Positions 18,685-24,843 of a stretch of DNA of 24,843 nucleotides are shown piece after piece (position 1 is the stretch's first letter; the number at the start of each line of letters is the position of its first letter). The DNA comes from a virus, in IMG/VR virus record IMGVR_UViG_3300035182_000641, positions 1 to 24,843 of that record; one strand, 5' to 3'. A model generated the notes under the pieces. That model made no database searches. It was not told where the DNA came from and saw only the letters and a list, made by a program, of their open reading frames with translations. The translations under genes were made by a program, and so were the position numbers.

Positions 18685-19404
18685 ATGTTCACCCTCGAAG
18701 ATTCGGCCCTCGAAGCTGTTCGCGCACACGCGGGGTCCGAAAGCCCCCGGGAGAGTTGTGGTCTTGTTGTGGTCCATAAGGGGAAACAGGTTTACCTGCC
18801 CTGCACCAACATTCACCACGAACCCAATAACAACTTCATGATCCGTCCGGAGGACGTGGTATCGGCTGAAGATTCTGGTGATGTGGTGGCCGTGGTGCAC
18901 TCTCATGTTGCCCACCCTCCCGTTCCGAGTGATGCCGACCTCGTCCAGATCGAGGCCCATGGACTTCCCTGGGTAATCGTGAACCACCCCGTGGGGAACA
19001 TCGGTATCTTCGAACCCTCCGGGTACAAGGCCCCCCTCGTGGGCCGACAGTTCAGCCATGGGGTGCTGGACTGCTACTCCTTGGTTCGAGACTTTTACAG
19101 GGAGGAGTTGGGCGTGGAACTCCCCGACCACCAGCGTGATCCGTTCTGGTGGGAGAAGGGGCAGAACATCTACATGGACCGCTACGAAGCCGATGGGTGG
19201 TCCCCCGTACCTGCCGAGCAGGCTCGCCGAGGGGACATGATCCTGATGGCCCACAATTCCACCGTCCCAAACCATGCCGCCGTGTACCTGGGGGACGGGA
19301 TTATGCTTCATCACCTCATGGGCAGACTGTCCACCCGGGAAGTGTATGGGGGCTACTGGGCCAAAATCACCAGAGTTATTCTTCGTCACAGGTCGCAGCT
19401 ATGA
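18685..19404 (+). CDS. K: Tail assembly protein K (JAB + NlpC/P60)
   Basis: 239 residues from ATG 18685 with GCAGGAG upstream. N-terminal JAB/JAMM metallopeptidase-like domain: Glu23, then H72-S-H74-x7-S82-x-x-D85 complete, so zinc binding should be intact. C-terminal NlpC/P60 domain: Cys130 in GVLDCYSLVRDFY and His197 in VPNHAAVYLGDG. This two-domain order is that of lambda gpK, which acts in tail tip assembly; the C-terminal half probably cleaves peptidoglycan. The stop TGA overlaps the start of the I-like gene in ATGA. Confidence 0.92.
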   Translation: MFTLEDSALEAVRAHAGSESPRESCGLVVVHKGKQVYLPCTNIHHEPNNNFMIRPEDVVSAEDSGDVVAVVHSHVAHPPVPSDADLVQIEAHGLPWVIVNHPVGNIGIFEPSGYKAPLVGRQFSHGVLDCYSLVRDFYREELGVELPDHQRDPFWWEKGQNIYMDRYEADGWSPVPAEQARRGDMILMAHNSTVPNHAAVYLGDGIMLHHLMGRLSTREVYGGYWAKITRVILRHRSQL

Positions 19405-20492
19405 TCACTCCAGTCAAACTCTACGGATTCCTGGGGCGGAAATACGGGAAGGTCCACAGCTTCGATATCTCCACCCCCGGGGAGGCTGTGAAGGCCCTTT
19501 TTGCGAACTTCCCCGAGTTCCAGAAAGATGTAAGGGACTTCAAGGGGGAGGGGTTCCGTGTGTATGTGGGGAATCGTCCGGACTCCATCGCGGTGGAAGA
19601 GACCTCATTTCCATTCGCAGGGGAGGAAATCAGGATAGTTCCCATCGTCCAGGGGTCCAAGGATGCCGGGGTGGGCCAGATCATTGTGGGTACTGTCCTG
19701 ATCGCCATCGGACTAGCCCTGACCTACTTCCTTGCTAGTAACCCAGTGAGTCCCTACCTGTACAAGGCCGGTGCCATCATGATCCTGGGGGGTGTCACCC
19801 AGATGCTTTTCGCCCCTCCCGTTCCAACAGGGCCATCCGAGCAAGCCAAAAACAATCCCAGCTATGTGTTCAATGGGCCCGTTAACACCACGGCCCAGGG
19901 CCATTGCGTTCCGGTGGGTTACGGGGAGCTTGAAGTCGGTGGTGCTGTGATCAACGGAGGTATCAACGCGGAGGTATACGCTCCGAATTCAGGTGGTGGG
20001 TTTGGTGGTGGCAGTGGTGGCAGTGGTGGCAGTGGTGGCAGTGGTGGCAGTGGTGGCAGTGGTGGCAGGTGCCCCGTTCCGGAGACCCTCATCAACATCA
20101 GTCCGGATACATTCCTAGAGGCTGGGTTGTTGAAGCCGGGGGATCGGGTGTGGACCCAGCACGAAGATACCCTGCAGTGGGGGTACTTTGATGTGGAGTC
20201 CGTAGAGAGGGTGAATAATTCCTGCCTAACCCTCCTATTGGCAGACGGGAGAAGTCTCACAGCCAGCTGGAATCACCGGGTGCTGGTGTACATGGAGTCC
20301 ATAGACACCTACGTGTGGACCGGGCTCCATGAACTCGGCCCGGGGGATTTGATCATGGGTGCCCAAACGGGGGAGGTCCGTGCGGTGGAGCCTGCTGGGG
20401 ATAGGGAGGTCATGAAGATATCCGTCAGAGGGGCCCGAACCTACCAGACGTCTGGGATTACCTCCCATAATGTCAAGGTCCTGAGCACCTAA
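19401..20492 (+). CDS. I: Tail assembly protein I fused to a C-terminal Hint/BIL domain
   Basis: 363 residues. Residues 1 to about 200 are lambda gpI-like: MITPVKLYGFLGRKYGK, a ubiquitin-like fold to about 85, two membrane-like segments (VGQIIVGTVLIAIGLALTYF and AGAIMILGGVTQMLF), then YVFNGPVNTTAQGHCVPVGY. Residues about 198-223 are a Gly-Gly-Ser linker. From Cys224 to Asn357 there is a complete Hint domain of 134 residues: block A with Cys224 and GLLKPGDRVW, block B TASWNHRVLV with His292, and a C-terminal block VMKISVRGARTYQTSGITSHN ending in H356-N357. Six residues (VKVLST) follow. Hint domains of bacterial intein-like type splice or cleave themselves. Residue +1 is Val, not Cys, Ser or Thr, so ordinary splicing is unlikely and cleavage is more likely. 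Whether this is unique to this phage is unknown. Confidence 0.88.
   Translation: MITPVKLYGFLGRKYGKVHSFDISTPGEAVKALFANFPEFQKDVRDFKGEGFRVYVGNRPDSIAVEETSFPFAGEEIRIVPIVQGSKDAGVGQIIVGTVLIAIGLALTYFLASNPVSPYLYKAGAIMILGGVTQMLFAPPVPTGPSEQAKNNPSYVFNGPVNTTAQGHCVPVGYGELEVGGAVINGGINAEVYAPNSGGGFGGGSGGSGGSGGSGGSGGSGGRCPVPETLINISPDTFLEAGLLKPGDRVWTQHEDTLQWGYFDVESVERVNNSCLTLLLADGRSLTASWNHRVLVYMESIDTYVWTGLHELGPGDLIMGAQTGEVRAVEPAGDREVMKISVRGARTYQTSGITSHNVKVLST
20007..20069 (+). repeat. 9-bp tandem repeat encoding the Gly-Gly-Ser linker
   Basis: GGTGGCAGT is repeated six times exactly plus one final unit with a G instead of T. It codes for (GGS)6-GGR directly before the Hint cysteine. Exact DNA repeats imply recent slippage, so linker length may vary between isolates. 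Confidence 0.95.
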
Positions 20493-20529: not shown

Positions 20530-23049
20530 ATGCTCCCAACCCCACCCAGTATCCCCCGTGCCCTCCCGGCCCTTTCCACCCCCATCCTCGGCTCAGGGGG
20601 AAAGAGCGGAGGCGGGGGGGCCCACACACCCACGGAGGCATCCGACACCCTTAGATCCGTGGCATACGCCAAGGCCCTGGATCTCGTATCCGAAGGGCCC
20701 ATCGAGGGGCCTTCTCTCCCGGGTCTGCAGTGGATCACCCTGGACGGCACCCCCATTGAAAACCCGGACGGTACTTACAACTTCAAAGGGGTCAATGTGG
20801 CCTGGGTATCTGGTACCCAGTCCCAGGAGGTGATACCCGGGTTTGAAGATACTCAGAGCGAAGTATCGGACGGGCGTGAAGTGCTGTTTTCCACCCCCCG
20901 GGTGTTCACCATTGATGACCCCAACGCGAATTCAGTACGCGTCACCATCGGGTTTCCGCAGATGACTTCTCAGTCTTCCAACGGGGACATCAATGGTAAT
21001 ACTGTAACCATCTACATTGACGTTCAGACCAACGGGGCCGGGTACGTCCAAAAGATCTCCGATGTTGTCACCGGTAAGTGTACCTCGATGTACGAGAAGT
21101 CTTACCGCATCCCCCTCACCGGCACCGGGCCCTGGGACATCAAGGTATCCCGTAGTGCCGATGGAACGGGGGCCTCTGACCAGAAGCGCACCTACCTGAA
21201 CAGGTACACCAAGATCATCGATCAGAAGTTCACATACCCCAATTCCGCCATCATGGGTGTTCAGATCGATGCCTCCCAGTTGGACCGAATCCCGACTCGG
21301 GGCTATCGTCTGAAGCTTCTGAAAGTCCAGGTCCCTACCAACTACGACCCCATCGCCAGGACCTACACTGGGGTGTGGGATGGGACATTCAAAGTTGCTT
21401 GGACTGACAACCCCGCGTGGTGCTTCTACGACCTCGCCACAAACACCCGCTACGGGGCCGGGAAGTTCCTGGCTGGGAAGGTGGACAAATGGGCCATGTA
21501 CACCATCGCGAAGTACTGTGATGAATTGGTTCCTTGCGGCACCACGGGTGCCACTGCCCCCCGTTTCCGGTGCAATGCCTACTTCCAAACCTCCGAGAAG
21601 GCCTACCAGGTACTCGCCAATCTGGCCTCCGTATTCCGTGGGATGATCTACAGCGCCTCTGGCATTGCAACCTGTGTGCAGGACGCCCCCTCTGACCCCG
21701 TCGCGGTCTTCACCAGCGCGAACGTGCGGGGGAAGTTTGTATACACCGGGAGTCCTCTCACCCAGCGACATTCCGTCGCTCTGGTGAAGTGGGTTGATCC
21801 AAACAATGGATTCAAAGAGAAGACCCTCTACGTGGAGGATACCGAATCCAGAAAGCGGTACGGGTACAACCCTACCAACATCACCGCCATCGCCTGCACT
21901 GACATCTACCAGGCCTACCGCGTGGGTGTATGGGCTCTTGCTTCCGAAAGAACGGAAGCGGAGATGGTAACCTTCCAGACCGACCTCATCGGGTCCGTCC
22001 TGACGCCTGGAGCCATCTTCCAGATCCAGGACCCGGATCGCGCCGGAAAATCCTTGGGCGGTCGGGTGCGGTCCGCCACCACCACCGCCGTCACCATTGA
22101 CCGGGAAGTGGTCATCGAGAACGGCAAGACTTACACCATGGTGACCATGCTTCCGGACGGGACCCCCGTGTCCCAGGCCATCAACAACCCCCCGGGGCCC
22201 ACTCAGATACTCACTGTGTCCACCCCCCTTGCCTCGGCCCCCGTGTCAGGGGCGGTGTGGGCCCTGTCCGTGAGTGATCTGGCCTTGACTACCTGGAGGC
22301 TGTTGTCTGTGAACGAAAAGTTCACAGACACGGAGATGTACTACGAGATCGAGGCCGTGGCCCATAACCCGTCAAAGTATGACTTTGTTGACCTGGGCAA
22401 GGACATGGTGACTCCCAACACCACGTCCATCCCAGTAGTACTCACCCCCTCCGGGATCACCATCTCTGAGTACCAGATTCGGAGGGGTGTGGGTACCGCT
22501 ACCGTCCTGGCTGTCGCGTGGAATTTCCAAAAAGACGCACGGAAATACTCCGTCCAGTACCGAAAGGACAACGGTAACTGGATGAATGTTGATGACACCA
22601 CGATTAATCATATCGAGGTAATAGGCATCCCTAATGGGGTGTACGATGTACGGGTGGTGGCGCACTATGATGGGGGGCTCTGCTCTCAGGCGGGTACGGC
22701 TACCTACACCGTGCTCGGCCTGATGGTCCCACCGGCCACACCCACCGGGTTCTCCGCCACCATCAATACCTTCGGCATCCTTCTAAAGTGGAACGAGAAC
22801 CCTGAGGTGGATATTGATTCCTACGAGCTTAGACAAGGCACGGACTGGGCCACCGGTACGCTAATCACCAATCTGAAGTCCACCAGCTACCAGTGGGAGC
22901 TCCAGGCCCTGGGTAGTTATAACTTGATGCTTAAAGCAATCGATACCAGCGGGAATTATTCCACTAACCCGGCCACCCTCCCCGTGGCCCCTTCCGTGAC
23001 CACCCCCGCCAGTATTACCATGACTGTATCCAGTACCAAGCCTGCGTGA
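20530..23049 (+). CDS. J: Tail tip / central fibre protein J-like
   Basis: 839 residues. The start has GGAGG before ATG 20530. Residues 22-60 hold the gpJ hallmark (GGKSGGGGAHTPTEASDTLR, then VAYAKALDLVSEGPIEGP). The middle has tail-tip domains around YANAVAREYLANV-type AYQVLANLASVFRGMIYSAS, and from about residue 640 there are FN3-like repeats (KYSVQYRKDNGNWMNV, GVYDVRVVAHYDGG; PTGFSATINTFGILLKWNEN). Lambda J is 1132 residues, so this one ends early after its FN3 domains. The next gene is in the same reading frame seven codons later, and may be its missing C-terminal half. It is the receptor-contacting tail tip base. Confidence 0.9.
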   Translation: MLPTPPSIPRALPALSTPILGSGGKSGGGGAHTPTEASDTLRSVAYAKALDLVSEGPIEGPSLPGLQWITLDGTPIENPDGTYNFKGVNVAWVSGTQSQEVIPGFEDTQSEVSDGREVLFSTPRVFTIDDPNANSVRVTIGFPQMTSQSSNGDINGNTVTIYIDVQTNGAGYVQKISDVVTGKCTSMYEKSYRIPLTGTGPWDIKVSRSADGTGASDQKRTYLNRYTKIIDQKFTYPNSAIMGVQIDASQLDRIPTRGYRLKLLKVQVPTNYDPIARTYTGVWDGTFKVAWTDNPAWCFYDLATNTRYGAGKFLAGKVDKWAMYTIAKYCDELVPCGTTGATAPRFRCNAYFQTSEKAYQVLANLASVFRGMIYSASGIATCVQDAPSDPVAVFTSANVRGKFVYTGSPLTQRHSVALVKWVDPNNGFKEKTLYVEDTESRKRYGYNPTNITAIACTDIYQAYRVGVWALASERTEAEMVTFQTDLIGSVLTPGAIFQIQDPDRAGKSLGGRVRSATTTAVTIDREVVIENGKTYTMVTMLPDGTPVSQAINNPPGPTQILTVSTPLASAPVSGAVWALSVSDLALTTWRLLSVNEKFTDTEMYYEIEAVAHNPSKYDFVDLGKDMVTPNTTSIPVVLTPSGITISEYQIRRGVGTATVLAVAWNFQKDARKYSVQYRKDNGNWMNVDDTTINHIEVIGIPNGVYDVRVVAHYDGGLCSQAGTATYTVLGLMVPPATPTGFSATINTFGILLKWNENPEVDIDSYELRQGTDWATGTLITNLKSTSYQWELQALGSYNLMLKAIDTSGNYSTNPATLPVAPSVTTPASITMTVSSTKPA

Positions 23050-23055
23050 GGTCTG

Positions 23056-24843
23056 ATGCGCCAGATTATGATTGATGACCAGGGGGGAGTCGGGACCGGG
23101 GGGGGCTCCGGGGGTGGAAGTCCTTCCCTTCTGATACCGAAGTATTTGGATGTCAACTGGACCCACACGGACGCCACCCCCTGGGCACAAAAGGGTTTCC
23201 GTCTTGTATTTTATACTGGCGCAGACCCCAACGACAGCAGCAAGTACTTAGTTCTGCCCATCGAGCTCGGACCGTCGGAGCGCAGGTACGTTCAGAAGGT
23301 CACCGTTCCGTCCAGCACCACCGTCATGGCGGCCATCCAGGCCACTTACCTCAACGGGAACGAGTCTTCCTGGAGGGTGCTGGGTGGTTCTGTGGTCGTG
23401 GACCCCGATACTGTGGTGGTGGGCACACAAGCAGGTGTGGATGCAGCAGCCGCTGCAGCCGCAACCGCCCAGACCACTGCCAACAACGCGGCTTCTGCCG
23501 CTGCTGCCGCACAGACCGCCGCTAATAACGCTCAGGCTTCCGCCAATACCGCTAACACGGCCCTCGCTAACATCGCTTCGGATAACATTCTCAGTCCCAG
23601 TGAAAAGCCTGCGGCGGTGTTGGATTACACGAACATCACGAACGAGCAGGCTGGTATTGACGCTCAGGCCGACGCCTACGGGGTAAGTCGCACGTCTTAC
23701 GATGCCGCTGTTTCGGCTCTGACTTCCTACCTTGGAACACTGCCTGGCTGGAATGTTATTCCCGGCTCCGACGTGGCTATCACGGGAACCACCTTCCGGC
23801 AGAAGTTTGCCGATGTGTATTCCACCAGACAGGCTCTTCTAAATGCGATCTATGCGAAGGCAAAGTCTCTAGCAGATGCGGCACAGAGTGGGGTCATCGT
23901 CCCAAATCCAAACTTTGACCAAGACATGGGCTCCACTTGGCCCAACATGACGCAGATAGCTGCAGGAGCGGCTCCCGCAGGGTGCCCCACGCCATTCTGT
24001 GGTCGAGCACAGTCGCGGGATCAAATTGCCACGCCCAGATTCCCTGTTACCCCCGGGGCGCAGATCTATTACGAGGCGTGGATTGACACGACACAGACCA
24101 CCAATACGGCATCATTTGGTTTGTATTTCCGGGATGCCGCTGGCAATCTTTTCTCCCCCACCTACACCGCCTCAGCCCCCGCCGGATCAGCATGGGCGAA
24201 GCGAAGTTCAACCTTAACGGTCCCGGCGGGGGCCGTGTCCGCCCATTGCTTCTGCCAGATCGATGCAGTCTCATCCTTCGGCAGCGCCTACTTCACCGGG
24301 CTGCGGGTGAGTGAGGGCATACCGGCCCAGACTGCCGCTGCTGCCGCTCAGACCGCCGCTAATAACGCTCAGGCTTCCGCCAATACCGCTAACACGGCCC
24401 TCGCTAACATCGCTTCGGATAACATTCTCAGTCCCAGTGAAAAGCCTGCGGCGGTGTTGGATTACACGAACATCACAAACGAGCAAGCCGGAATTGATGC
24501 CCAGGCAGATGCCTACAGTGTAAGTCGCACGTCTTACGATGCCGCTGTTTCGGCTCTGACTTCCTACCTCGGAACACTACCTGGCTGGAATGACATCCCC
24601 GGCTCCGATGTGGCTATCACGGGAACCACCTTCCGGCAGAAGTTTGCCGATGTGTATTCCACCAGACAGGCTCTTCTGAATGCGATCTACGCGAAGGCAA
24701 AGTCTATAGCGGATGCAGCTAACGATCTCGCTGGCTCAACTATCAAGCCGATTCTCTTCAAAGACTTCTCCGGTGGCCTTCCCTACGGTGTCACATTCCC
24801 AGGCACCGTCGCATCGAGTGACAATGGGACGACCACGACAATC
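23056..24843 (+). CDS. Modular tail fibre protein, 3' end beyond window
   Basis: Open from ATG 23056 to the right edge (596 codons, no stop). GAGGT lies four bases upstream of the ATG. Order: Gly-rich start (about 10-25), an FN3-like domain (YLDVNWTHTDATPW), an Ala-rich coiled coil, then repeat R1 (about 148-276) with ASDNILSPSEKPAAVLDYTN and YSTRQALLNAIYAKAKS, a jelly-roll/carbohydrate-binding-like unit (about 277-426: VPNPNFDQDMGSTWPNM, YYEAWIDTTQTTNTASFGLY, FFTGLRVSE-type end), then repeat R2, nearly identical to R1. The 'SD..LS..EK...' module is common in phage fibres with gpJ-like ends. The carbohydrate-binding-like unit probably recognises the host surface. Same reading frame as the J-like gene. 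Confidence 0.85.
   Translation, partial: MRQIMIDDQGGVGTGGGSGGGSPSLLIPKYLDVNWTHTDATPWAQKGFRLVFYTGADPNDSSKYLVLPIELGPSERRYVQKVTVPSSTTVMAAIQATYLNGNESSWRVLGGSVVVDPDTVVVGTQAGVDAAAAAAATAQTTANNAASAAAAAQTAANNAQASANTANTALANIASDNILSPSEKPAAVLDYTNITNEQAGIDAQADAYGVSRTSYDAAVSALTSYLGTLPGWNVIPGSDVAITGTTFRQKFADVYSTRQALLNAIYAKAKSLADAAQSGVIVPNPNFDQDMGSTWPNMTQIAAGAAPAGCPTPFCGRAQSRDQIATPRFPVTPGAQIYYEAWIDTTQTTNTASFGLYFRDAAGNLFSPTYTASAPAGSAWAKRSSTLTVPAGAVSAHCFCQIDAVSSFGSAYFTGLRVSEGIPAQTAAAAAQTAANNAQASANTANTALANIASDNILSPSEKPAAVLDYTNITNEQAGIDAQADAYSVSRTSYDAAVSALTSYLGTLPGWNDIPGSDVAITGTTFRQKFADVYSTRQALLNAIYAKAKSIADAANDLAGSTIKPILFKDFSGGLPYGVTFPGTVASSDNGTTTTI
23497..23882 (+). repeat. 386-bp direct repeat in tail fibre gene, copy R1
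   Basis: About 94% identical to 24334-24719 (about 23 mismatches counted by eye), offset 837 bases = 279 codons, so in frame. A tract of about 127 bases from 23512 is identical in both copies. Mismatches are mostly synonymous. Confidence 0.95.
24334..24719 (+). repeat. 386-bp direct repeat in tail fibre gene, copy R2
   Basis: Second copy of the repeat at 23497-23882. The 451 bases between the copies (23883-24333) are unique and code for the jelly-roll-like unit. Amino-acid changes are few: Gly to Ser, Val to Asp, Leu to Ile. Confidence 0.95.

Follow-up and report, generated by a model that had tools for sequence, protein, structure and literature searches.

The virus record IMGVR_UViG_3300035182_000641 was analysed as a 24.8-kb window, that is, the whole stretch of 24,843 nt. 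Its gene order is lambda-like (terminase, portal, capsid, tail protein, tape measure, M, L, K, I, J), and its closest terminase relatives are MW202621 and MW202657, neither of which yielded a gpI-Hint protein for comparison. We focus on the gpI-like protein, which carries an additional C-terminal domain (Table 1).

The tail module of the window is syntenic with prophage modules. The gpK-like and gpJ-like products are 51% and 46% identical to K of a Corallococcus prophage and to the prophage J, respectively, and the first 123 residues of the tail-fibre-like product are 45% identical to a separate prophage fibre. The fibre-like gene also contains two near-identical copies of a segment of about 125 residues (QTAANNAQAS...NAIYAKAKS). 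At the left contig end, outside the assigned genes, positions 12-140 form a short tandem repeat that reads as TFGSL repeats in one frame.

Table 1. Positions of the gpI-like gene, its parts and its neighbours in the window
Feature	Position	Strand	Basis or remark
gpK-like gene, adjoining the gpI-like gene upstream	18685..19404	+	phrog_30; syntenic neighbour
gpI-like gene	19401..20492	+	363 aa
gpI-like tail assembly/plug core, residues 1-195	19401..19985	+	phrog_32 match; lambda gpI alignment
Gly/Ser-rich linker	19986..20069	+	contains exact 9-bp tandem repeat, 20005-20068
Hint domain, Cys224 to Asn357, 134 residues	20070..20471	+	family profile, PDB profile matches, AlphaFold2, Foldseek
Cys224, predicted nucleophile, block A position 1	20070..20072	+	Cys in 59/59 aligned relatives
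His292, block B His, position 69	20274..20276	+	His in 59/59; T/S at position 66 in 59/59
His356-Asn357, block G, predicted Asn cyclisation site	20466..20471	+	HN in 73/73 domains; Asn357 at 20469-20471
Tail VKVLST, six residues, then stop	20472..20489	+	Lys359 (20475-20477) stands at +2, where the family conserves Lys
gpJ-like central tail protein	20530..23049	+	phrog_31; syntenic neighbour, without Hint
Tail-fibre-like gene, incomplete at the contig end (24843)	23056..24843	+	syntenic prophage homologues end in a second Hint

The gpI-like protein and its Hint domain

The N-terminal part of the protein matches the PHROG family phrog_32 'tail assembly protein' with E=1e-51 over residues 2-191 (profile positions 4-198 of 203). 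With this near-full-length match, and with K and J as its flanks, we identify it as gpI; the Pfam family Lambda_tail_I matches it with E=7e-4, under its cut-off. In an alignment of gpI proteins from lambda, phiES15 and other phages, phiES15 gpI stops short of the linker and lambda gpI extends over about its first 10 residues. Because both end at the linker, the gpI core of the window protein is complete, and no gpI remainder lies past the Hint domain. Lambda gpI lacks a Hint domain, as the original prediction for this locus had stated.

The same prediction described a Gly-Gly-Ser linker, encoded by an exact DNA repeat, between the two modules; Tandem Repeats Finder reports a 9-bp unit in 7.1 copies with 100% matches. 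The A, B and F/G block motifs of a Hint domain that it had read beyond this linker are present in the translation as LLKPGDRVW, TASWNHR and SGITSHN, followed by the predicted six residues after Asn357. Position 1 is C224, and the T/S-x-x-H pattern of block B is formed by S289 and H292. The catalytic positions are thus intact, and the residue at +1 is Val358, so that the domain has the A-type-like end, lacking Cys, Ser or Thr at +1, that had been proposed. A frameshift or an assembly artefact as the origin of the gpI-Hint fusion was rejected, since the gene is a single open frame and the same layout recurs elsewhere.

The profile search suggested along with the prediction was weak for the domain alone (Pfam Intein_splicing, E=0.01), and an IMG/VR search with the single window Hint sequence gave no matches; with relatives, the assignment became secure. 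A profile built from 58 relatives, with the window left out, was compared with all ORFs of the window and found the Hint domain with E=2.6e-38, compared with 0.04 for the top-scoring one among 2,000 shuffles, although many of the relatives were confirmed by their similarity to the window and the test is hence not fully independent. In the PDB, the family profile matches Tetrahymena BIL2 (6y75, 2.8e-12), the DnaX mini-intein (7cfv, 2.8e-10) and a C. thermocellum BIL domain (2lwy, 5.4e-10), and Hedgehog too. The AlphaFold2 model of the domain has a pLDDT of 94.9 and a pTM of 0.87, and Foldseek aligns it with intein, Hedgehog and BIL structures at TM values of about 0.80-0.87 (E 1e-8 for inteins and Hedgehog). 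These PDB matches and structural comparisons support the Hint assignment independently of the relatives' profile. The C-terminal domain of the gpI-like protein, residues 224-357, is therefore a Hint domain of the HINT superfamily, as predicted.

A family of Hint domains on virion proteins

The collection of relatives started from the deposited phage contig MT835519, which has a near-full-length tblastn match (3e-5) to the window Hint domain. The matching region is the C-terminal end of a tail-tip protein of 734 aa, which shows the same layout of a Gly linker, a Cys...SHN domain and then eight residues. Successive alignments gathered 16 and then 46 IMG/VR loci, plus five GTDB genomes; when 193 genomes were sampled across the phylum to which the Corallococcus hit belongs, 16 of them added further relatives. 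The collection contains 73 distinct phage Hint domains, of which 72 start with Cys and all end in His-Asn. In 60 of them the arrangement is C-terminal, that is, a Gly/Pro linker, the Cys...His-Asn domain, 1-16 residues after Asn, and a stop; at least six Gly or Pro residues lie within the 20 residues preceding the domain in 65 of the 73. The +1 residue is never Cys or Ser, and it is Thr in one case. Across the 59 aligned rows, which share about 27-42% identity with the window Hint domain, Cys1, T/S66, His69, His133, Asn134, A18, G24, T29, A122 and T124 are invariant, and Glu32 is kept in 58.

The domain is carried by gpI, J-like tip proteins (phrog_5616/31), the tail proteins phrog_2048 and phrog_376, tail fibres, phrog_358 proteins and some uncharacterised proteins. 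The Hint tree mostly tracks the carrier protein and shows that the domain was attached separately several times. The window Hint domain belongs to a family that many bacterial viruses have on tail proteins and on further proteins of the virion; in the open-licence literature we found no earlier description of this family, nor a report of a Hint domain on gpI or on tail fibres.

Two other arrangements were seen. In L091 (4564-5060; IMGVR_UViG_3300020045_002196), a gpJ has an N-terminal Hint domain (CFAAGT...VHN, +1 Thr) flanked by two VIRGAGGGGG-like stretches, possibly a mini-intein within the Gly-rich beginning of this protein. In L004 (2775-5540) and L056, a single phage protein contains two Hint domains of the family.

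A survey of gpI homologues, also proposed with the prediction, found the fusion in 12 other distinct gpI proteins, chiefly from prophages of myxobacteria (Myxococcus/Corallococcus) and from related records; the sources, IMG/VR records and genomes, include Corallococcus carmarthensis, Corallococcus sp. AS-1-6 and Myxococcus eversor. The comparison set also held 80 distinct gpI proteins without the domain, and among 1,455 gpI matches in deposited phages none covered 80% of the query or showed the fusion. Most of the 12 fusions adjoin a second Hint-tailed fibre. The prophage fibre syntenic with that of the window itself ends in a Hint domain, and we predict another beyond the contig end of the window; this is a prediction because the fibre gene is cut there.

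Fifteen modules have this fibre. Both gpI and the fibre carry a Hint domain in eight of them, gpI carries it next to a contig-cut fibre in two, the fibre alone has it in two (one sequence), neither has it in one, and gpI lacks it next to a contig-cut fibre in the remaining two. This patchy distribution indicates that the domain is an accessory that comes and goes. In the gpI tree, two changes are needed for the window and the myxobacterial fusions, which is still compatible with a single origin, and the Hint trees gave no supported placement for the window domain. A Gly-rich tail also closes some gpI proteins that have no Hint domain (L086, L124 and L153); the linker may thus be older than the domain.

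Among close gpI fusions, pairwise dN/dS is 0.10-0.61 for the Hint domain and 0.08-0.27 for the gpI core. Judged from these ratios, the Hint codons are under purifying selection, yet evolve faster than the core.

A further regularity lies behind the terminal Asn. Lys occupies +1 or +2 in 71 of the 73 domains, compared with 2.4% Lys in the remainder of the short tails; the C-terminal domains have it at +2 (57 of 60) and nearly all the others at +1 (12 of 13). One of the two exceptions is cut by a contig end, and the other has Lys at +3. We rejected the explanation that the +2 Lys is a by-product of the ribosome-binding site of the next gene, since in 12 of the 13 domains that lack a short tail the Lys is at +1, far from the end of the gene. 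This near-fixed Lys is unexplained by plain cleavage.

Fate of the Hint domain on gpI

The Hint domain is probably active and self-processing in the manner of BIL domains, detaching itself from gpI. We favour this reading because of the fold and profile matches, the invariant catalytic residues, the purifying selection, the complete gpI core and the recurring layout. We infer the chemistry, the products and the timing in tail-tip assembly as follows. After folding, Cys224 would attack the preceding peptide bond in an N-S acyl shift assisted by Ser289 and His292, and the gpI C-terminus would then be held on a thioester. Cyclisation of Asn357 would sever the short tail, water or an amine would resolve the thioester so that the Hint domain leaves, and the mature gpI would end in its Gly-rich tail. 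BIL domains without a +1 nucleophile mostly give cleaved products (PMC7664689), and some of them splice (PMC5874633). Counting against release of the domain are the many phages in which gpI works without it and its patchy occurrence among syntenic modules.

The conserved Lys raises another possibility, in which the Cys224 thioester of gpI is captured by Lys359, or by a Lys of a neighbouring tail-tip protein, to form an isopeptide bond. Tetrahymena BIL2, the closest solved sequence, is reported to join its N-flank (ubiquitin-like domains) to lysine in this way (PMC8616854), and this chemistry, together with a Lys so rarely missing from +1/+2 and so infrequent elsewhere in the short tails, makes Lys capture a real rival. 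The Gly-rich N-flanks, resembling ubiquitin-like substrates, and the presence of Hint domains on both gpI and fibre in eight syntenic modules are also in its favour. However, the acceptor Lys of BIL2 is in the next domain rather than at +1/+2, joining gpI to a tail of 1-16 residues has no evident use, and the Lys could simply aid folding or catalysis; on balance we regard this ligation as unlikely. Slightly more doubtful still is its extension to phage virion Hint domains at large, which would use the fixed +1/+2 Lys, or that of a partner, to link the gpI plug and fibres covalently by ATP-free isopeptide bonds during tail assembly.

The domain might instead have lost processing and be retained on the tail tip for decoration or binding, or as a decaying intein relic. 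Its evolution faster than the gpI core and its absence from many syntenic or related modules would agree with this, but no catalytic residue varies, even between distant relatives and among many carriers, and dN/dS is below 1, so that we consider an inactive domain improbable.

Finally, the original prediction held that lambda gpI is not found in the mature virion, and that self-cleavage could therefore serve to remove gpI itself during tail assembly. The cleavage chemistry is plausible, but cryo-EM and mass spectrometry contradict the premise: lambda gpI stays in the virion as a trimeric tail-tip plug that lies below the tape measure and whose C-terminal part passes through gpJ (PMC10721106, PMC11101478), and a removal device thus has very little to recommend it. 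Cleavage would take the Hint domain off gpI rather than remove gpI.

The Hint domain on gpI joins two separate fields, those of self-processing Hint domains and of the plug that opens the phage tail. The family offers natural comparisons, such as between syntenic modules whose gpI has or lacks the domain, and the Lys after Asn poses a sharp chemical question. If the domain ligates, it would provide ATP-free covalent bonding in virions and possibly a tool for protein engineering.

Comparison with known systems

A-type BIL domains (PDB 2lwy; PMC7765530, PMC5874633) share with the phage domains the Hint fold, Cys1, the block B His, a terminal His-Asn without Cys, Ser or Thr at +1, and placement in variable, linker-rich regions. 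The phage domains differ in being on virion proteins, usually at the extreme C-terminus, and in their T-x-H-E signature and +1/+2 Lys, although A-type BIL domains may share both of the latter. The window domain probably works like a BIL domain; we leave the A-type subclass unassigned, the family profile being of similar strength for BIL2, the BIL domain 2lwy and inteins.

Tetrahymena BIL2 of the BUBL1 polyubiquitin locus (PDB 6y75, 6tmm) is the best PDB profile match of the family, with a TM of 0.80. It also lacks a +1 nucleophile. Like the phage Hint domains, it has a Gly-rich N-flank. It differs from them in being eukaryotic, with ubiquitin-like exteins and its acceptor Lys in the following domain.

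Inteins (PF14890; gp41-1, DnaB and phage terminase inteins) have the same fold and blocks A, B, F and G. In the window protein, however, no Cys, Ser or Thr begins a C-extein, the host protein does not continue behind the domain, its core ending before the linker and six residues following, and the domain is not in a conserved insertion site; a simple intein was rejected on the first two grounds. The Hog domain of Hedgehog has a sterol-recognition region and no terminal Asn, whereas the window domain ends in HN followed by the six residues. Some family members give weak profile matches to Pretoxin HINT (PF07591), but the window protein has no downstream domain to release, and a toxin-type use of this kind was rejected. 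The lambda gpI family (phrog_32, PF06805) resembles the window protein in its core, its gene position between K and J and its hydrophobic segments, and differs in stopping at the linker, without a Hint domain.
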